This document shows, piece by piece, positions 32,395-64,000 of a stretch of DNA of 64,000 bases. Made by a program: the position numbers and the translations under genes. The stretch lies in the NCBI GenBank assembly GCA_002794775.1, contig NBAY01000034.1:310001-374000 (forward strand), given 5' to 3'. Origin of the DNA: Porodaedalea pini (taxonomy: Eukaryota > Basidiomycota > Agaricomycetes > Hymenochaetales > Hymenochaetaceae). A model generated the notes under the pieces. That model searched no databases and had not been told where the DNA came from. It was given only the letters and a program-made list of their open reading frames with translations. Positions within the stretch are counted from its first letter, which is position 1; each line of letters opens with the position of its first letter.

Positions 32395-34788
32395 CTAAAG
32401 GTAAAAGGAGGGTGGTAATTCAGATAAGAGTGGCATGGAGTCCAGTGGGCGACGGAAGGAAAAGTATGCGAATTTGAGAAGGAGGAGAAAGTTGTTAGGG
32501 CGGAACCAATCAGAAAAGGATAAAGGTAGAGAACGTTGACGATAAAGGCCGTTTCGAATTAATGTGAAAAAAGGGCAACAATTAAGGATGTGACGGACAT
32601 CATGTTTAATGCACACTGGGTCCAGACAACGGGGTTTGAGGTTTCAAATTTGCAGATCGAGTGCGTTCAGCATTAAGCTGGCGGCACGGGATAGAACTGA
32701 TCGATGTATCTTTTTCCTTGGAGGGAGCTTCAGAAATGGGTGAAGACTGCACGTTGGGTGAAGGATAAATGAGGATGGCTCCATAATGGAGCAGTGCCCG
32801 CTGAGGTTGAGCATTTTGGCTTTCCAGTCTCGGAGAAGATTGAGCTGTACTTGCACCTTCAAGTTGGGTAACAAGTCCGGTATAGGTTCTCGTTCAGGTT
32901 TCGACACGGCATCTTTCGCGAGTTTATCAGCTTTGGAGTTGCCCAATACCCCCCGGTGGGAGGGGAGCCACTGGATGGTTATGTGTGAGGCTGTGTGGTG
33001 AAGGGCGAGAAATATCCTGCATAGGTGACAAAAGGTTATGATAAACTCCATGTGTCGGGAGTCATTCGAAAAGATAAGCTGGACACTGTTCAGCAAATCC
33101 ATAACAATATGAATGTGTATTGGTGTGAAGCATTTCGCAAGGAGGGAAGATATACGATGCATGGCTGCGATGAGCGCTTCCTGCTCTTCAAACAGAATGT
33201 TTGAACAAGAGTGCACTGCTGAAGAAAAGACAGCAAGTTCTCGGTGATCGTGTATAATTGTGAATCCATGGCCCCTGTTGTAGGAACCATCGGCATCGGG
33301 GATGATGGAGCCATCTGTGAAGATGAAATACTGATATGGAGGGGGGTGTAAAAAGAACGAATTGAAGTTGCGGATAGTGCGATGACATTGTAATGATGAG
33401 GGAATAGGAGTCATAATGAGGCGTGAATGAATTGGGGTGAAAGACGGATAGGAAGTAGATTTAGGAATCGAAATATCGGGAAGGAGCGACAACATTAAAT
33501 ATTGTTTTGAGATGGGGTTATGTTTGGAATGAGAAAAGTATGAAAGTAAGAATTTTTTAGAGAGCAAACAAATGAATAAATCAAGAGGTGGGCATGATAA
33601 AAAGGATTCGGCAATGGTCGGCTGGATGCTGTTATGGAAAACATAGTGAAGAAAGCAGTTTTGTGTTTTCTGAAGTATAGAAGAAATGAAAGGGGAATCA
33701 GGAAAAAGAACAGCGCCATAAATGGTGACAGAATGAATTAAACCAAAATATAAAAGACGGGTGTGTTGAAAGTAAGCGCCATTGGACTGATTAAAAAGAA
33801 ATTGACGTTGGTGTAGGGTGGAGAGTGCTTTGTTGGCATGAGATTCAAAATGAAGTTTGGGTGAGAGGTCATAAGAAAAAATTATGCCTAGCCAAGTAAG
33901 GTGGCACGAGGGACGAATAACGCAATTGTTGGGTAAGATTAAGGAAGCGTTGGAAGAAGAGGGTGAGTCTTTTAGAAACGAGCAAAAAGTATAGTCCGCA
34001 ACAGGGTGGTAGGGAAGGATGTGAAGAAGTTCAATAGCGTCTGGGTCAATGGACAAGCCAAGAGATTGGAATTGAAGGGAAAGAAAATGGAATTGGTTGT
34101 GAAGGCGAACTAAATTGGTTGAAATGCTGAGTGATCGTGAATAGAGAAGGTGGTCATCCATGTATGCTAGTAAAGGACGGTGTGGGCCGAATTTGAAGTT
34201 ATAGGCAGTAATAGCATCAGCTGCAGCGAAAATTGAAATGAGGGGAGATAATGGTGATCCTTGGGGAACACCATGGTTGGGTTTGATAAAAGGGGGAGAA
34301 AAGAAATTGTTGAAATGAAAAGAGATGGAGCGATCTTTTAACCAGCAAGAAAGAACGTGGATGATGTTAGGGTGAAGATTAGATTGGGTAAGTTTTGTAA
34401 GAAGGCGGTTATGAGAAATGTTATCAAAAAAGCCTTGAATGTCAACGGTAAGGATAGAAGTGATGAAATAGCGGTGTTGGTGTCTAATGGTTACGATCCG
34501 GTCGCCTCCACTAGTTGCAAAAGGTTGGGATAAAATGGTGGATAGTAAATCATAACAAGTCGTGAGGGAAGAACGATGTTTCTGACACCCATGTTGGGCA
34601 TCCAGGAGAAGATGGTTAATTTCAAAAAAAGGTTGCAAAATATTAAAAAGAACTCGTTCGAAAAGTTTGCCAAGGGTGTCAATCAGGAAAATAGGATGAT
34701 ATGCTCTTGGGACTGAAAAGTCAGAACGTTTGGGTTTTGGAATGAAGGTAACAAGGGAGGTTTTGAAAGGTAAAGGAAAGTAGCCAAG
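32395..34788 (-). pseudogene. LINE ORF2, 3' part: reverse transcriptase and RNase H
   Basis: Reads from the insert junction at 34788. Reverse transcriptase motifs: FIPKPKRSD, HGCQKHRSS, VDIQGFFDNI, HGVPQGSPLSP, and catalytic YMDD. RNase H follows: FIFTDGS, EEQEAL, IVMDLLNS and SHRGVLGNSKADKLAKDA. A TGA at 32644-32646 breaks the frame, but the same frame continues to 32395 and includes a Cys/His cluster (C..H....C near 32600) common at LINE ORF2 ends. TGA at the place of a probable CGA (Arg) suggests a C-to-T change. In the uninterrupted element this joined the endonuclease part at 41272. Confidence 0.93.
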
Positions 34789-34798
34789 CATCAGGAAA
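34789..34798 (+). repeat. left terminal inverted repeat
   Basis: CATCAGGAAA, exact reverse complement of 41262-41271; the next base pair differs (G versus A). Confidence 0.85.
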
Positions 34799-34802
34799 GT
34801 GG

Positions 34803-35170
34803 AAGTATCTTTACAGATCTTTACAGCTCTTTACACTACTATACACTGCTATATAGTGACCATAGTTCTGTAAAGCTCCATAGTACTCTATGATTACCCC
34901 CCCACTATGCAGCTCTGTAAAGCAACATATAGTTCAGAGCTCTGTATAGCTCCCCATAGTGCATATTTTCATATCTATATAGTAATGTATAGTAGAGTAT
35001 AGCTTCATATTCCATAGCAGTATAGTGTTCAGTAGTGTTATATAGCTGGGAATAGCTTCATAGTCCATAGTAGTATAGTGTCCAATAGCATTCTATAGCT
35101 GGTAATAGCTGGTAAAAGGCTGTAGCTCTGTAGTAGTAAAGCAGCACATAGTTGCTTAAAGCTGCACTAG
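34803..35170. repeat. left subterminal AT-rich repeat region
   Basis: Dense short motifs tatagt, ctttaca and catagt in both orientations, including two diverged units of about 65 bp at 34990-35110 (each with tagcttcata, ccatag.agtatagtgt). No ORF. Similar motifs occur at the other end of the insert. Confidence 0.7.
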
Positions 35171-35315
35171 CAGCAGGTAGTAACACCTCCTAGGGTAGCT
35201 CATGACCTTACACATTTGTTTAGATAGCGGGCAGATTGCAAAATTGATATATTATCATATGCAAAATACATTGGATATCTACTACCCTAGTGGTATAGCA
35301 CTTCCAACTGCCTAC

Positions 35316-36583
35316 TCATCTCCCTGACTTGTCCATGACCTCTGCCACACGAATAATTTGCCACCGTTCAGACCCGTACCCTGTGGATCGTCCAGGTCTT
35401 CGACCACATGTTGAACATCTCTGGCCGCGAGAAGCTTGGCCAAGGCAATGCGACGTCGCAGCTTGGATGCCACGGCCGGTCGTCGGAATGAAGCCTTCCA
35501 CGGTCGTCGTGTGAAGACCACCGGCGAACTTCTCCTTCTCGGACTTGACGCCGGGGATGACGGGTACGGCGAGCAGCTCCTCGTACACGCGACGATATAA
35601 GTCAAGAATTTCCCGTGTGAGATGAGCAGTGTGACCTTCCTGCCATAGGAATTCGCGCGTACGGAGGAACGGCTGGGGGCTCTTGAACTCCCAGCGCACA
35701 ACACTGTTCCACTGGTTGAGGTTCAGGGGCAGATCACGATAGCTCTTGATCCATTTGGCATAGTAGGGATACATGGCCGTTTCCGAGGTCGGACGGATTG
35801 CTATGGGCTCCGCAAGCTCGGAGCTCCCTCTCAGGACGTAGATGTCAACATCGAGTCGGAAATCGAAAAATTCGAACACGTACGCCCTGGTCACCCATGA
35901 CACTTCCGGAGAAAAGTCCTCAATGTCGTCCCTTTCACGCTCGAGCACCTTGAGATGCGAATGTTGGGAAGTCAGAATTCTGAACCATTCTGTGGCGAGT
36001 AAGAACCTGAGATGCAGATGCTTGTTTTTTTTTTAAATACCTTGGACTGCTTTCCAGATGCTGTATGACCAGGGATTAGGAATGTAGCATCCACTAACGC
36101 TGTAGTAGTCTAACATACCGGCCTTGATCAGCGCCTATGATACTTGTCAGCACTAAGTGAGGGATTACAGAACAATCAGCATACGTTCGTATACGATACC
36201 GGAAAGTCGACCTCTTTCTTCACGCCAAACGCAGCCTTCACGGCGCCGTCGTTTCTCCCTTCCTCTTTCGCTGCCTTTTCCTGGATGGCAATTGCAGACG
36301 TGGGCGGAGCAGGCGCCGCAGCATTGGTCTTGAGTGCCGCGAAGTCTACTTCGTGAAGCTTGATCTCTCCGGTTCCGAGAATGCGCAAGTATGAAGCAAT
36401 GTCGGTTCCAGAGAGGAAGACAGTAGAATTGGAGGCGAGCGCACGTACGGCGAAGGCGGAAGTCGATGATGCGAGCGATGCACCAAGGACCGTGACAACC
36501 TTCGGGAACGTGTTGGCATCGGTTTCGACGAGGAAGCGACATTCGCAGTGAACGGGTTGGTAGCAGCGCTGATACGGTGCACA
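35316..36583 (-). pseudogene. prolyl-tRNA synthetase fragment, copy A
   Basis: On the minus strand this reads the linker after the N-terminal domain (TDIASYLRILGTGEIKLHEV, VKKEVDFP) and then the class II catalytic core: [66 protein letters not shown] segment and [15 protein letters not shown]. Relics of introns are still present (a splice-like GTATTT...CTCAG near 36000-36050, and a degenerate intron near 35840-35885 whose acceptor is mutated), so it was copied as DNA, not as a retrocopy. About eight to ten residues normally between HLT and LDLYRR are missing in both copies A and B. Frameshift after LGQ. Fused upstream, in one frame, to an eIF4G piece. Confidence 0.88.
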
Positions 36584-36793
36584 CTCAAACAGGTCGGCAA
36601 CGAGTTTGGCATCAGCCTCCTTCGCCTCAATAGCAGACATGACAAGCTTCTCGACGAGAAGATATCGATGCTCTGAGGGAAGTGCAGAGAAATACTCTTC
36701 CGCATCGTCGAGATCGCGGATAGCGAAGAATTCCTTGCGGTCCTGGTCAGTCTTCTTTTCCGCTTGCTCCTTCGACATCGCCAATTTTCCCAT
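36176..36793 (-). other. open chimeric reading frame, eIF4G MA3 start fused to prolyl-tRNA synthetase linker
   Basis: A 205-codon ATG-initiated frame crosses the breakpoint between the two captured genes. Residues 1-70 are the start of an MA3 domain (FFAIRDLDDAEEYFSALPSE, KEADAKLVADLFE); from about residue 85 onward it is the synthetase linker (SSTSAFAVRAL, STVFLSGTDIASYL, FGVKKEVDFP). Open frame across the junction may be chance or selection; no transcript evidence is available. Confidence 0.5.
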
Positions 36794-37632
36794 AGTCCTT
36801 CTCGAGAATCTCGCCCTCCTCGCTGTCGTGAGTCTCAGCGGGACTATTCTCCGACTTCTCCTGCATGGGCTTCGAACGCGGAAGCAGGTTGAGTCTGGGA
36901 CGCTGAGCAGGTTGGACAGGTTCCACAGATGCGTTGTGGGTCAAGTCGACGCTCATTGTACGGCTTGACGGGCGACTTGGACGAGACGAGGATGCAGTAG
37001 GAGCCTCATTAGTGGCCTCAGCGGCCTGCAGCATCTGGAACATGTTCGTGTTCGAACTTGTCCTTGAAAGGCTCGCACTGTCGTGCTTGCTGTCTCCCTT
37101 CTTCGTGAGACGCTGGTCGGTCCGAAGTTCATGGTGCCACTGCCCTTGTGAATCTTGCCAGAGTTTGTCAGATCACCCGCCTCGTTTGCAGGCCTCGAAG
37201 GACCAGAGAAGACAACCCATCCGTCGGGACCCACTTGAACATTTCCGCCACGATCACGGCCACGGCGTGAACCGCCGCGAGACATGGCCGGCCGCGCTAA
37301 GTTATGTTGCTCCTGTTGTGCCTTCTCTTTCGCGGCCTGTATATTGGTAAGCACAAGTGAAATCGAGTAACAAAGCAAGAGCACGTACCGCCTCATGAAT
37401 CAGAGCGATCGTCGACGGAGCAGCGACCAAGTTGCGGGTAGTCCATTTCCTTTCCCGCAATTCAATCACATCCTGTCCAAGAAAGTCAGCTCAACGAAAG
37501 GCTAGGAAACAGAGGGTACGCACTTGTAACATGAACTGCATACAAGACGACACGTTGCTGCTCTTCGCAAGCTCCTTCATCCGACTGAAATAGACGTCCA
37601 TGTGTCCGCGAGCCTTAGAGGTATCGAGCGCC
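36584..37632 (-). pseudogene. captured eIF4G fragment (MIF4G end to MA3 start)
   Basis: Reading down the minus strand: the end of the MIF4G domain (ALDTSKARGHMDVYFSRM, SSCMQFMLQ, an intron, DVIELRERKWTTRN), then AKEKAQQEQHNLARPAMS, the RGG-rich and VGPDGWVVF linker, LPRSKPMQE, and the MA3 start with EEYFSALPSEHRYLLVEKL. This order is that of eIF4G, the scaffold of the cap-binding initiation complex. Introns remain between MIF4G segments (near 37465-37520 and 37340-37385). At least one frameshift (about 37050-37100) breaks the linker. Fragment begins and ends abruptly against prolyl-tRNA synthetase sequence. Confidence 0.87.
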
Positions 37633-37739
37633 TGACCAACAAGAGTTTACATCCGCAGGAGCCGCCGCATCGGTCTTGAGTTCCACAAAATCTACTTCGT
37701 GAAGCTTGGTCTCCCCGGTTTTGAGAACACGCAAGCGTG
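37633..37739 (-). pseudogene. prolyl-tRNA synthetase linker scrap (third copy)
   Basis: About 100 bases encode IASRLRVLKTGETKLHEVDF and ELKTDAAAP, the same linker segment as in copies A and B, joined on one side to the synthetase C-terminal part and on the other to eIF4G. Only this short piece is present. Confidence 0.75.
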
Positions 37740-39250
37740 AAGCAATGTCGGCACGACATCGTCCCATTGGTCACGACGCGCAGGCGAGACATGTACAATG
37801 CCTTCGCGTGCTCGAACATCTGCTGTTGGATAGTCTTGAGATGTGCAGACAAACCGAGGAATAAGGAATAATTGTATTTTCACACCTTCTGTTCCCAGTC
37901 GATGAACTTGTAGCCAGGAGTGTAGCCGTCCCATACATCCGCCTCCGCGTGGATACCGGCTTTCCTGAGCGTCTTCGCGAGCTCCTCACATCGGTCGTAT
38001 AGCTCCTACTCATTAGTGCGCACGGCGATACTGCAGGGGACAACGATTGCTTGGACGCGAGCGACGCGTGATGGAGAACAAGACCCTGGTTGTCGCCGCG
38101 AATCATGACTATGAATCCGATCGTGCGCGTGCTAAGGCCCCATGAGTTCTACCACGCAAATAATTAGCCACCGTTCGGACCCATACCCTGCGGATCGTCC
38201 AGGTCTTCGACCACATGTTGAACATCTCTGGCCGCGAGAAGCTTGGCCAAGGCAATGCGACGTCGCAGCTTGGATGCCACGGCCGGTCGTCGGAATGAAG
38301 CCTTCCACGGTCGTCGTGTGAAGACCACCGGCGAACTTCTCCTTCTCGGACTTGACGCCGGGGATGACGGGTACGGCGAGCAGCTCCTCGTACACGCGAC
38401 GATATAAGTCAAGAATTTCCCGTGTGAGATGAGCAGTGTGACCTTCCTGCCATAGGAATTCGCGCGTACGGAGGAACGGCTGGGGGCTCTTGAACTCCCA
38501 GCGCACAACACTGATCCACTGGTTGAGCTTGAGGGGTAGATCGCGATAGCTCTTGATCCATTTGGCGTGGTAGGGATACATGGCTGTTTTTGTAATCGGA
38601 CGGATTGCTATGGGCTCCTCAAGCTCGGAGCTCCCTCTGAAGACGCATGTCAACATCGAGCGGAAATCAAAAAAGTCGAACATGTACGCCCTGGTCACCC
38701 ACACCACTGCCGGAGAAAAGTCTTCAATGTGGTCCTTGTCACGCTCGATCACCTTTTGAGAGACGAACGTCGGGAAGTAAGCATTCTCTACACCCATCTC
38801 CCTGACTTCTCGCACTGAACCATTCTGTGGCGAGTAAGAACCTGATATACAGATGCCTGTTTTTTTAAATACCTTGGATTGCTTCCCAGATGCTGTATGA
38901 CCAGGGCTTAAGAATATAGCATCCACTAACACTGTAGTAGTCTAGCATATCGACCTTGATCAGCGCCTATAATACTTGTCAGCACAAAGTGAGGGATTAT
39001 AGAACAATCTGCACACCTTCGTAGTCCAACCCGGAAAGTCGATCTCTTTCTTCGCGCCAATAGCAATCTTCACCGCGCCGCCGATCCTCGCTTTTCATTG
39101 CCTTTTCCGGGGCGGCAATTGCAGACATAGGCGCAGCAGCATCGGTCTTGAGTTCCACAAGATCTAAAGCTTGGTCTCCCCGGTTTCGAGAGCACGCAAG
39201 TATGAAGCAATGTCAATTCCAGAGAGGAAGACAGTAGAATGGGAGGCGAC
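37740..39250 (-). pseudogene. prolyl-tRNA synthetase fragment, copy B (linker, catalytic core, anticodon-binding domain)
   Basis: Longest synthetase copy. From 39250 downward: STVFLSGIDIASYLRALET, an intron (about 38965-39015), [31 protein letters not shown], then [20 protein letters not shown], the catalytic core as in copy A, and after 38140 the C-terminal domain ([56 protein letters not shown]). Several frameshifts and stops make it non-functional; introns are kept. The stretch 38168-38770 is almost identical to 35353-35960 (offset about 2807 nt), showing duplication inside the element. Confidence 0.88.
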
Positions 39251-39335
39251 TGTGACGGTGGTGAAGTTTAGAAGTTGAAGTTGGCAATGGCACGCGTCAA
39301 AAACCAACATACACGTGACTGATTTCCCACACCTT

Positions 39336-39367
39336 CTGCTCGCACATGCGCGCGCATGTGCGAGCAG
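39336..39367. repeat. 32-nt perfect palindrome
   Basis: CTGCTCGCACATGCGC followed by its exact reverse complement, flanked by tcccac and gtggga that extend the stem with one gap. It lies between captured synthetase sequence and the fold-back element. Confidence 0.9.
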
Positions 39368-39495
39368 AGGCGTGGGAATTTGGACTTAGGTGAATTTCAC
39401 ACATCTCAATTTCGTAGTACCTACCTACAACTGCTCAGTGGCTCCTTCATCCTGAACCACACCTACCTCCTTAACAACCAATGTGTCAAGATTGG

Positions 39496-39498
39496 ATG
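39496..39498 (+). repeat. target duplication ATG, left of fold-back element
   Basis: ATG directly left of the fold-back; repeated at 40297-40299. Short, so could be chance, but both copies abut the exact palindrome ends. Confidence 0.6.
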
Positions 39499-40296
39499 CA
39501 CGGCAGGAAAATCCGGGGTTTTCCGTGAGGGAGGAGCATATCACAGAGTGTTTAGTGGGGCTCATATAATTTTGGCCGGAAAAGCCTTACATGGATTGTA
39601 AATTTTCAATCAATCAAAATGTGCAGAAATTATGCTTTATGTATCTAAAATTGATGGCCATCAAGAAAAGTATTTCTGAACTCAGTGTCTACAATCTACT
39701 TTGCCAAAGGATAAGATAATTCTGGGATTCTGAATCTCCATTGTCCATAAATAAAGAGAATGGTGGTTATTAGATTTAGAATCTGTAAAGTCTTGGACAC
39801 AAAGGAAAGAGGCTCATTGGATTTAAAATCCACATAGACTCCTTGCATGAATGGAAGATCTCTCTCGGATTTGGGATCTATGGATCACATGATTAGCATA
39901 TAATCAACTCAGCATAGATCCCAAATCTGAGAGAGATCTTCCATTCATGCAAGGAGTCTATGTGGATTTTAAATCCAATGAGCCTCTTTCCTTTGTGTCC
40001 AAGACTTTACAGATTCTAAATCTAATAACCACTATTCTCTTTATATACTGACGATGAAGATTCAGAATCCCAGAATTATCTTATCCTTTGGCAAAGTAGA
40101 TTGTAGACACTGAGTTCAGAAATACTTTTCTTGATGGCCATCAATTTTAGATACATAAAGCATAATTTCTGCAAAATTTGATTGATTGAGAATTTACAAT
40201 CCATGTAAGGCTTTTCTGACTGAAATTATATGAGCCCCACTAAACACTCTGTGATATGCTCCTCCCTCACGGAAAACCCCGGATTTTCCTGCCGTG
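39499..40296. mobile_element. 798-bp fold-back (MITE-like) element
   Basis: Two nearly identical inverted arms of exactly 384 nt (39499-39882 and 39913-40296) around a 30-nt loop (39883-39912), which itself contains a small stem TGATTA..TAATCA. Outer ends read CACGGCAGG...CCTGCCGTG. ATG flanks both sides. No coding capacity beyond mirror-image short ORFs. Nested inside the 6.48-kb element, so it came in later or was carried along. Confidence 0.9.
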
Positions 40297-40299
40297 ATG
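40297..40299 (+). repeat. target duplication ATG, right of fold-back element
   Basis: Matches 39496-39498. Confidence 0.6.
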
Positions 40300-40849
40300 C
40301 CAGACCAATAAGGAGAGCATCTCTGGAAAGCACAATGTTTACTTTGACTTGAAGGATAACTGTAACTATATTCCTCTTTCTCTTCCATTAATATTGTTTC
40401 ACTGTTTATCATTTGTCCTGGACCCATCACCCATCTATTTCAACTCCTTGAAATTCTTAGCTTCTCTATACTCAATCTCCACATGTTCACTTATACTAGT
40501 TGTACAGTTTTTCATTCTACATGTCTTTTTCTGTTTAGCTTGTTTTGATATCTTCTTTCTTACCTTCTGAACTTTCATTTGTGTTTACTGAGCCCATGAA
40601 TTGTGATGAATATATAGTATTTATTCATACTCTCTGCTGCATTTTTTAATTATTTGATTTTCAAATGAGTGATATAATGCAGGCTTGGGAGCAGCCAAAA
40701 ACGATCTCCTAACTGTAACTATTCTATGCAGATGTTTCTCTGATTAATAAATACAGATTATACATACAAGGCATGATTCAGTTGTGATCTCAGGTTGGTT
40801 TTCATACATGTTAAGATTCATTACTTAGTATCCTTATAGACACTTACTA
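40300..40849. other. non-coding part of the 6.48-kb insert
   Basis: AT-rich; short ORFs without family features. Nothing recognised. Confidence 0.5.
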
Positions 40850-41240
40850 TAAAATACTATTGCAGTTATATATGCCTATTGATACTATATAACTATATGC
40901 TATATAGCTTTATGTAACTATGAGAGGCTATGAGCTATATAAAACTATATGTACTATACAATACTCTATTACTATGTACTATGCAACTTATCATGACTAT
41001 GAGAGACTATGAGCTATGAGCTATATACCTTTATGTGACTATCAGAGGCTATCAGCTATATGAAACTATATATACTATATAGTAATCTATCACTATGCGC
41101 TATGCAACTTTACATGACTATGAGAGGCTATGAACTATATAAAACTATATGCACTATACAATACTCTATCACTATGTACTATGCAACTTTACATAACTAT
41201 GGCATGCTATATCCTACTATATGACTATATACTACTATAG
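40850..41240. repeat. right subterminal AT-rich tandem repeats
   Basis: Three imperfect units of about 80-120 bp sharing ctatgag.ggctatgagctatata, aactatat..actata and ctatgcaactt (starting near 40915, 40998 and 41115). No ORF. Counterpart of the region at 34803-35170. Confidence 0.75.
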
Positions 41241-41261
41241 CCAACTATGGGTTTTTGCTGT

Positions 41262-41271
41262 TTTCCTGATG
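41262..41271 (+). repeat. right terminal inverted repeat
   Basis: TTTCCTGATG, exact reverse complement of 34789-34798. Confidence 0.85.
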
Positions 41272-42707
41272 AATCTGCAAGCATAAAGAGAAGAGGTCCA
41301 CAAAAAATTGTCCACGGTGCTCGATGAGAAGCTCTAGGTGTCGGTACGAGATATGGTTGTTACCAGGACTTGTTTCGTGATTGATGCCTTGGAGTGCATC
41401 CTGGATGTCACACAACTCGATTGGGCGATAGTCGCGAAGGGTGGGGAGGGGAATAGCCTCTGGCGTCGACGTTAATGGGGGAAAAAATGTTTCGCAAAAG
41501 AGTGACACTTTATCACTTTCGGTGAGTGTGAATGACCCATTGGACATATGCAGCGTGCCAATAGGGATGTGGCGGCGTGCAGTACCTAGAAACTGATTGT
41601 GCCAAGCTGTGTGTGCGTTGGATTGTTGTAGACAAGCGTCAAAGAATGTGTTTTTGGCTCAAGTGATTTCAGTGTCTAGGAGTTGTCGAGTGTCAGGGTG
41701 AGGATTGCAGCAATATGACCGGTAGAGCTTGGAACATGTTTCGGACCACCAGGCATTGGGGCCGAAGTACAAATGAGGTTTTTGTTTGTGAAGGAAAATA
41801 AGAGCGAAGTCTGAAAAGGAAGATTGAAAAGTAAAAAGAAGGTCATCCAGTGCCTTGGGGATTGGATTCCTTCTAATGAGAAGGAAAATAGTTTAGAATC
41901 ACAGAACTCTGAAACAAAAGAGGGCAAGTCCTGGGAGCGAATTGAGCAGAGGGGTGTTTGAGGGGGAGATGCCAGAGCGTCAATCTTGAACGAAAAGTGG
42001 ATGGGAAGATGATCAGAAGAAATGTCTAGGGAAGGGTCAGAAATAGATATGTGATCAAAAAGGAGGGGAGCGAAGTCGTCTGATGCAATGATGAGGTCGA
42101 TAATGGATTTAGAAAGATTAGAACGATTAAAATAGGTATGTTGATTAGGAGGGTTACAAACAGATAAGCAATTGTTGTTGATCCAGTCAACGAGCAGAGC
42201 CGACTTTGAGAATTCAACGGATTGCGCTGGGAAAGACCAAAGGTCTGAATGTCTGTTAAAGTCCCCCAGGAAAATATTGGAGGGAAGGTGAAGCAAAGGA
42301 AGAGGATTCTCAAACTCGTGAAGACTCGGAGAATTGTAAATGTTCCAAAGTAAAAGAGAGGTTAGGTCTCCCCGAGCAATAGAAATGACGGTGATGTTTG
42401 GAGACAGGGAGTCAGGGTTATATAAGGAGACACGATGAATAATACGAGGGTGTACCAGAGTACAGCATCGTGGTTTAGCAGGTGAAGGAGAATAAAAAGC
42501 GGTATATGGGGTGGAATTACGAATTTGAAAAGATCGTGATCTGGTAGGGGACGTTTTGGATGGGGTAATCGATGAAATAGTTGGAATTTCCTGGAAGCAA
42601 ATGATGTCAGGAGAAGCGTGTGTGGAAGAAAAGGCGCATAGAAGATAGTTGAAGGTGGGTTCTGAATTGCGAATGTTAAGGGAAAAGACAGAAATTGCGT
42701 CAGTCAT
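41272..42707 (-). pseudogene. LINE ORF2, 5' part: apurinic-type endonuclease
   Basis: ATG 42707 begins just 7 bases after ORF1 ends. Endonuclease motifs: SLNIRN, IICFQEIP, FLGDFNRHSDLW and SSDHLPIHF. A frameshift at about 41885-41900 moves the rest to another frame (PIPKALDDLLFTF, FGPNAWWSETC), and TGA 41659-41661 interrupts EIT-AKNTFFDACL. Beyond it: HMSNGSFTL, SPGNNHISYRHLELL and DLFSLCLQI, which stops at the insert and continues at 34788. Endonuclease nicks target DNA for reverse transcription. Confidence 0.9.
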
Positions 42708-61775: not shown

Positions 61776-64000
61776 ATGGCTCCTCTGTCGCACCCTTCAA
61801 TCATCGGTACGCATCTTGAACAGACTATATGCGATTAGCTGACCACAAAAAGATGGTTGGTTCAGGGAGATCTCCTCGCAATGGCCAGGCCAGGCCATGA
61901 CCTTGAAGGTCAACAAAATTCTCCATGTTGAGAAATCCAAGTACCAGGATGTGCTCGTCTTCGAGTCTGCTACTTATGGCAACGTGCTCGTCCTGGACGG
62001 AGCTATCCAATGTACAGAACGCGACGAATTCTCGTATCAGGAGATGATCGCCCATCTACCACTTGCAAGCCATCCAAACCCGAAGAAGGTGCTTGTCATT
62101 GGAGGCGGTGATGGAGGTGTTGTTCGTGAGGTTCTGAGGCACGAATCGGTCGAGAACGTTGTTCTTTGCGACATCGACGAGGTACGTTGCACCGAATCTG
62201 GACGAGCTCTATTCTTAACTTTTGTGCAGGCAGTAGTCAGAGTATCAAAGCAATTCCTTCCTCACATGTCCTCCCTGCTCTCCGATCCACGTGTGACTGT
62301 CTTCATCGGTGACGGATTCAAGTTCCTTGCGGACAACACTGCGACTTACGACGCGATAATCACCGACTCTTCTGACCCTGTTGGCCCCGCCGCGTCACTC
62401 TTCCAAAAGCCGTACTTTCAGCTCATTTACGATGCACTTACTCCTGGCGGCCATGCTTGTTCGCAAGGCGAGTGTCTCTGGATCCACCTCCCGCTTATCC
62501 GCGAACTGCGCGACACGACCTCGACGATTTTCCCCACCGTCGAGTATGCGTTCACGACCATCCCGACATATCCATGTGGTCAGATCGGCTTCACTATGGC
62601 TGCGAAGCAGGCTGGTCGTGACCTCAAGACGCCGCTTCGTAAGGTGCCTGGCTGCAAGTACTATAACGCAGACGTGCACCGTGCGGCATTCGTGCTGCCC
62701 GAGTTCGGACGTGTGATGCTCGAGGAAAGTAAGAACATTACTCCAGTGCTAACGAAAACCATCGGGAACGACAAGAAGATCCTTCTACTTGGTAGTGGTT
62801 TCGTTGCTCGACCTGCAGCAGAGTACATTGTGCGCAACCGGGCCAATTCGCTCACGATTGCATGCCGTACACTCTCTTCTGCGCAAGCGCTCGCCGAGGG
62901 GCTCCCAAACACGTCCGCGATTTCATTAGATGTCAACGACACTGCGGCGCTCGAGTCGGCCGTTGCGGCTTACGACCTCGTGATCTCGCTCATTCCGTAC
63001 ACTCACCATGCGACTGTGATCAAGGCAGCGATCAAGGGCAAGACGCATGTCGTGACGACATCGTACGTGTCGCCCGCAATCCGGGAGCTCGACGCGGAAG
63101 CGAAGGCAGCGGGCATCGTCGTCATGAACGAGATTGGTCTTGACCCAGGCATTGACCACCTCTACGCTGTCAAGACAATTTCGGAGGTTCATGCGAAGGG
63201 TGGAAAGATCAAGCAGTTCCTGTCATATTGTGGCGGTTTGCCTGCGCCTGCGGCGGCGGATAATCCTTTGGGATACAAGTTTTCATGGTCCTCACGTGGT
63301 GTACTCCTTGCGTTGCTCAATTCTGCATCGTATTACTCTGAGGGCAAGAAGAAGGACGTCCCCGGCTCGGATTTGATGGGAGAGGCGCAGCCGTACTACA
63401 TCTCCCCGGCGTACGGATTTGTCGCGTACCCAAACCGCGATTCCACTCCCTTCCGCGAGTCCTACAACATTCCTGAGGCAGAGACGATCATCCGTGGCAC
63501 GCTGCGCTACCAAGGATTCCCTGAGTTCATCCAGGTGCTTGTGAAGCTCGGATGGCTTGACGCGACTGAAAAGGAATGGCTCAGCGAGGGCTTTTCATGG
63601 GCGGAGGTCACACAAAAGGCAACTGGCGCTAACGATGCGTCCGAAGTGTACGTATGCTAGTTTTCGCTACCTGTCGAGTGAGAACAAAGGGCTCACTACT
63701 TTGGGTCATATTGCTTATAGTTCGTTAATCGCGCGCATCGATGCATTGTGCGAATTCCCATCTGCTACCGAGCGTATGCGCATTGTCTCTGGTTTGCGGT
63801 GGATCGGGCTCTTCTCGCAGGAGAAGGTGTCGCCACGTGCGGGTAACCTGCTCGACACGCTCTGCGCGCAGCTCGAGAAGCTCATGCAATACGCGCCGGG
63901 TGAGCGTGATTTTATCATGCTTCAACACAAGTTCGTTGTCGAGTGGGCGGATGGCAAGCAGGTTTGGCGTTCATTCACTTCTAATCCACCGTGAAGACAC
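61776..64000 (+). CDS. spermidine synthase-saccharopine dehydrogenase fusion (partial at right edge)
   Basis: Exons 61776-61806, 61853-62181, 62230-63647 and 63721 to beyond 63960. Residues 1-290 are spermidine synthase: [51 protein letters not shown], and DSSDPVGPA with the aspartates that bind putrescine and the aminopropyl donor. From about 320 is saccharopine dehydrogenase (glutamate-forming): [15 protein letters not shown] (NADP-binding), [14 protein letters not shown] and [20 protein letters not shown]. The protein thus makes spermidine from putrescine and carries out the penultimate step of lysine synthesis by the aminoadipate route. This fusion is known from Basidiomycota. The 48-nt intron 62182-62229 is stop-free. 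A GTTTGG donor after WADGKQ (63961) implies a further intron and exon outside the window. Confidence 0.95.

Follow-up and report, generated by a model that had tools for sequence, protein, structure and literature searches.

A probable Plavaka-type DNA transposon carrying pieces of prolyl-tRNA synthetase and eIF4G genes in Porodaedalea pini

Plant Pack-CACTA, Pack-MULE and other Pack-TYPE elements are non-autonomous transposons with terminal inverted repeats (TIRs) that carry captured coding sequence, often drawn from two or more loci (PMC8903248). Among fungi, a hAT element of the ascomycete Pseudocercospora fijiensis carries one host gene, for histone H3, and has copies inactivated by repeat-induced point mutation (PMC6710886), and gene-capturing Helitrons, which are rolling-circle transposons, are described in Pleurotus ostreatus (PMC4289320). 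PlavakaB families encode a transposase, some with a TET/JBP gene, and have CATCA..TGATG termini and 2-3-bp target duplications, the termini of PlavakaA being TGT..ACA (PMC12730594); Plavaka TIR motifs are mentioned for Marasmius oreades in a supplement (PMC8290104). We analysed a 64,000-nucleotide stretch of the Porodaedalea pini genome (the window, G000:C34:310001-374000; positions are window positions unless a contig is named) that contains a 6,483-bp insert at 34789-41271 with pieces of a prolyl-tRNA synthetase (ProRS) gene and an eIF4G gene. We consider this insert, with a probability of roughly 0.92, to be a non-autonomous Pack-type DNA transposon of the Plavaka superfamily with PlavakaB-like ends.

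The insert resembles PlavakaB in the CATCA..TGATG termini, the 2-3-bp duplications of its family and the Plavaka transposase found in same-ended elements, but it carries ProRS and eIF4G pieces where the described families code for transposase (PMC12730594). With the plant Pack-TYPE elements it shares a non-autonomous TIR structure and captured coding DNA, although those belong to other superfamilies and here the same capture recurs in many elements (PMC8903248). Unlike the P. fijiensis hAT, it is assigned to Plavaka and contains two genes with chimeric joins (PMC6710886), and unlike the Pleurotus Helitrons, which also hold captured gene fragments (PMC4289320), it has TIRs. The kind of element is already known from plants, an ascomycete and Pleurotus; what is new, as far as searches of the open-licence literature tell, is the link to Plavaka, the capture of two translation genes and the copy number. 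In the available parts of that literature on Plavaka and fungal TIR elements with host genes, TET/JBP was the only gene named as a Plavaka capture (PMC12730594). The locus ties gene capture by non-autonomous elements to a little-studied superfamily, and its ladder of related elements (ProRS only, ProRS with eIF4G, and reshuffled or repeated forms), with the source genes still present, allows the capture order and the joins to be read.

The insert and its target site

The initial annotation had proposed a 6,483-bp insert with perfect 10-bp TIRs and AT-rich subterminal repeats that splits the open reading frame of a long interspersed nuclear element (LINE). Its boundaries proved exact, the insert starting with CATCAGGAAA and ending with TTTCCTGATG, and the AT-rich repeats are present at both ends. 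The relevant features are as follows.

32644..34788, minus strand: LINE reverse transcriptase/RNase H part, 3' of the insertion
34789..34798, no strand assigned: left TIR, CATCAGGAAA
34789..35170, plus strand: left end with AT-rich subterminal repeats, common to other elements including the Plavaka-coding C40:267874-295768
40850..41271, plus strand: right end with AT-rich subterminal repeats, common to other elements including that on C40
41262..41271, no strand assigned: right TIR, TTTCCTGATG
41272..42707, minus strand: LINE upstream part, with an endonuclease domain in 41679-42707

The target is a decayed LINE, with reverse transcriptase and RNase H domains on one side of the insert and the endonuclease domain on the other. 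Three LINE paralogues lacking the insert, fetched out of 40 matches, were all contiguous through the target site. Relative to them, the window carries three additional bases, with AAG preceding and AAT following the insert, which we read as an imperfect target duplication of 3 bp or one of 2 bp that has mutated. Removal of the insert had been said to restore the ORF2 frame, and this holds for the reverse transcriptase frame, which is open across the joined flanks for 843 codons in total, including 129 upstream of the join; the endonuclease part lies in a different frame. An assembly join between contigs, named at the outset as a possible origin of the boundaries, is unlikely, because other loci share the termini and the LINE paralogues run uninterrupted across the site.

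Elements with the same ends

We searched the genome with the left (382 bp) and right (422 bp) ends of the insert, as the initial annotation had proposed, and found other loci with both: at least 25 matching pieces for the left end and at least 38 for the right, the window copy included, these being lower bounds that count pieces and not copies. The exact 10-mer CATCAGGAAA has 478 occurrences (235+243) over 53.27 Mb of genome, while the same motif read backwards has 85 (40+45). Half of this excess gives an estimate of about 197 same-ended elements, or roughly 200 in the genome. A 27-base degenerate pattern covering two left-end types, with at most one mismatch, matched 34 sites and its control none.

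Both ends were recovered for 26 elements (23, and 3 more); five further fetched loci (L021, L022, L023, L025 and L026) gave no end pair by the patterns used and are absent from every count. All 26 end in CATCAGGAAA..TTTCCTGATG, though the motif was itself a selection criterion. The 2-bp flanks are identical in 21 of the 26 (18/23 and 3/3), compared with 61 matches in 506 wrongly paired flanks. Two elements on C7 and C54, E7 and E54, are 99.2% identical over 5,352 bp at sites with different flanks, so recent movement of elements of this type is likely. Elements E53 and E30 (L015 and L017), in turn, occupy the same target within flanks that are 95.9% and 97.5% identical; they are therefore not independent, and element and flanks were probably duplicated together.

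A search of the genome with the Pfam Plavaka family (PF18759) gave 64 matches, some of them between CATCAGGAAA pairs. This provided the transposase-coding relatives for which a search had been suggested. The element at C40:267874-295768 (27,895 bp) has window-type ends, a Plavaka transposase and CA on both flanks; its left end is 91% identical to that of the insert over 335 bp, and its right end 78% over 227 bp. PF18759 matches two overlapping frames of this element (E 2.1e-50 and 1e-18). The first holds a C2H2-finger-like stretch that stays below the Pfam cut-off, as well as the beginning of the Plavaka domain; the second holds the remainder. A 6,043-bp element at C7:494687-500729 has the same 10-bp CATCAGGAAA ends and a PF18759 match at 1.2e-76, and a third coding element lies on C3. 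The insert itself gave no PF18759 match, and its three scanned open reading frames no transposase domain; it is therefore non-autonomous. At the level of the family, the PlavakaB termini, the 2-bp duplications and a PF18759 transposase are all present, while the insert does not encode a transposase of its own. The putative assignment to PlavakaB rather than PlavakaA is based on the termini.

The cargo and its spread

Genome-wide, ProRS-C matches best at C57:62471-62800 and MIF4G at C33:46164-46910, and these loci are the best-scoring intact-looking candidates for the sources of the cargo. The C33 frames carry MIF4G and MA3 domains; the C57 gene was judged by its reading frames and family matches. 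A second strong MIF4G locus (C33:77030-77755, 155.5 bits, open frame of 461 aa), either a paralogue or further cargo, is situated some 30 kb away from the source gene of eIF4G. Alignment to the two sources (ProRS coordinates on reversed L040, from C57; eIF4G coordinates on L041, from C33) gave pieces that are 81-92% identical to them, the lowest value belonging to a 63-bp eIF4G patch. They are listed in minus-strand order.

37846..39247, minus strand: ProRS piece B, source 1015-2469, 88.5% identical, tRNA-synt_2b domain
37746..37851, minus strand: ProRS scrap, source 2615-2721
37655..37751, minus strand: ProRS scrap, source 1046-1142
36579..37641, minus strand: eIF4G piece, source C33 994-2068, 91% identical, two introns retained
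36516..36578, minus strand: 63-bp eIF4G patch between eIF4G and ProRS, source 210-273, 81% identical, with a 5-nt overlap with ProRS
35333..36520, minus strand: ProRS piece A, source C57 931-2174, 87.5% identical, tRNA-synt_2b domain

This is the order and strand that had been described from the window, to which the 63-bp patch, previously unmentioned, and a 798-bp fold-back element nested in the insert are to be added. Overlaps of 5-6 nt at three of the five joins suggest template switching. Intron retention also agrees with the earlier description: five intron intervals, set from the source genes, are kept at 78-92% mean identity and a gap fraction of at most 0.061, as measured in alignments that span the intron, a test that would miss alignments breaking there.

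Each of the 23 examined elements that lack a PF18759 match carries ProRS pieces (20/20 and 3/3), and nine of them carry eIF4G pieces (9/20 and 0/3), whereas in the three Plavaka-coding elements no match of at least 150 bp to either gene was found. Thirteen of the 23, including the window copy, were found through similarity of the ends, three through similarity of the interior, and seven (L033-L036 and L045-L047) through the ends alone, paired from those of the 478 CATCAGGAAA sites that were listed. The window copy, T3_C114 and T2_C135 share the point where eIF4G ends (2068), the patch and the point where ProRS starts (931), while their outer ends differ; this join therefore probably predates the split of the three. 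In T3_C10_88, ProRS pieces from 511 to 2967 stand in source order, with gaps and no eIF4G, and in T3_C114 eIF4G lies between ProRS 507-679 and ProRS 931-1494. From these two arrangements we infer that ProRS was captured first and eIF4G second. Thirteen similar loci with a match to MIF4G 2-160 and a nearby ProRS-C match (C28, C125, C58, C34:3815, C72, C95, C66:97509, C43:165580, C88, two on C44, C25:388631 and C42) are probably a young subfamily.

The family thus shows what marks Pack-TYPE elements: TIRs and target duplications without a transposase (the window copy's own flanks excepted), host coding DNA with source genes elsewhere, and identical cargo joins at different sites, which indicate mobilisation after capture. 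The non-autonomous Pack-type element proposed by the initial annotation accords with the retained introns, the sources on C57 and C33, the same ends at many sites and the transposase-coding relatives. The analysis adds the Plavaka superfamily and the finding that the cargo is not private to the window copy.

Coding constraint was assessed on six exon stretches with 4 to 26 aligned copies each, leaving out the three later-recovered elements. Substitutions private to a single copy numbered 124 at codon position 1, 98 at position 2 and 127 at position 3; for sites where only the source gene differs the numbers were 8, 11 and 71. Raw differences between elements and source lean to position 3 (97, 90 and 259 for MIF4G), the pattern that constraint on the source gene would produce. 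Since the private substitutions are spread nearly evenly, the cargo looks largely unconstrained and non-coding, and it is most likely passenger DNA.

A third captured gene, suggested by an HMG-box stretch in L034, was rejected. The stretch belongs to an independent repeat of about 2.1 kb (L034:537-2659) nested in a ProRS- and eIF4G-carrying element at C1:817047-823716, with at least 41 matching pieces, itself included, among the best 40 of 141 candidates that were scored.

Competing explanations, possible mechanism and neighbouring features

Several observations weigh against the assignment or its parts. The window copy is flanked by AG and AA, with no 2-bp duplication, and the duplication is also missing in E10, T3_C66 and two of the three transposase-coding elements (C7 and C3). 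The C40 transposase gene has one stop within the matched stretch, and at the end of its second frame begins a probable nested LTR retrotransposon, seen as two direct repeats about 5.8 kb apart that are 98.6% alike; this transposase copy is probably not functional. The transposases of C40 and C7 are only 28% identical and the C40 right end is only 78% like that of the insert, so these enzymes are no more than candidates for moving the window subfamily. Transposition is deduced here from comparisons of copies, and window-like ends or interior had led to 16 of the 23 cargo elements. In the intron test, which sees spanning alignments only, two alignments begin no more than 5 nt away from one of the intron borders. 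Codon position 2 has somewhat fewer private changes (98/349) and the source-only eIF4G differences include the common stem of the elements, so that an early coding phase of the cargo is possible.

The alternative that survives best, improbable as it is, is that some elements encode a functional chimeric eIF4G-ProRS protein under selection. In its favour, the eIF4G-ProRS join falls inside a single open frame both in the window (36176-36793, minus strand; a frame of 205 aa) and in T2_C135 (an open stretch of 257 aa between stops), certain MIF4G copies are free of stops, and the slight deficit at codon position 2 points the same way. Against it, the private substitutions apart from that deficit affect all codon positions, so that the counts lend selection on this frame little support, and other copies have stops or deletions. 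A database search with the chimeric query gave 18 matches, none spanning more than 56% of it. Three of the 18 were compared residue by residue, one matching the ProRS half and two the eIF4G half with a weak extension past the join, and among these three no chimera truly crosses the join.

It is very improbable that a Helitron, or reverse transcription of mRNA, first captured the cargo and that a TIR element came to enclose it only afterwards. Helitrons are not known to have TIRs or target duplications, whereas the elements have TIRs and, as a family, duplicated flanks; no search was made for a preceding Helitron step. The retained introns argue against a spliced mRNA source, as a processed copy should lack them. 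Gene-capturing Helitrons do have a basidiomycete precedent in Pleurotus (PMC4289320). Least credible of all is an ordinary segmental duplication or pseudogene cluster with inverted repeats unrelated to its spread: the sources lie elsewhere, the pieces are broken and E53 and E30 share their flanks, but many unrelated sites hold cargo between the same ends, flanked by identical 2-bp sequences, and LINE paralogues without the insert exist.

For the Pack-type transposon, the following course may be proposed. A Plavaka transposase supplied in trans by a related element would recognise the CATCAGGAAA ends and subterminal repeats, and would cut and paste the non-autonomous element. Host DNA may have entered during repair or template switching, as the short overlaps at the joins would allow, with ProRS captured first and eIF4G later inserted into it; the composite would then have multiplied and decayed into several subfamilies. 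A bolder version, on which we find the odds evenly balanced, is that this is the first recognised Plavaka Pack-type system, in which a near-complete ProRS capture founded a lineage that makes up most of the roughly 200 elements, eIF4G followed later and new chimeras are still arising, possibly with a side effect (e.g. through small RNAs) on the two essential source genes.

These elements also carry a warning for annotation, as many ProRS-like and eIF4G-like matches in the genome are transposon cargo; searches for the class II core and for MIF4G give 87 and 89 matches in the genome, numbers that also count true synthetases and other MIF4G genes. Two further features of the window are listed here.

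39499..40296, no strand assigned: separate high-copy fold-back element nested in the insert, with 384-nt arms
61897..63660, plus strand: single open frame with spermidine synthase and saccharopine dehydrogenase domains

The fold-back element (798 bp) has arms that are 96% complementary, CACGG..CCGTG ends and ATG on both sides, and gave at least 121 matching pieces, each copy counted on both strands, among the best 40 of 191 candidates that were scored. On C32 and C22, a copy of it adjoins the HMG-box repeat. A spermidine synthase-saccharopine dehydrogenase fusion of this kind is known in basidiomycetes.

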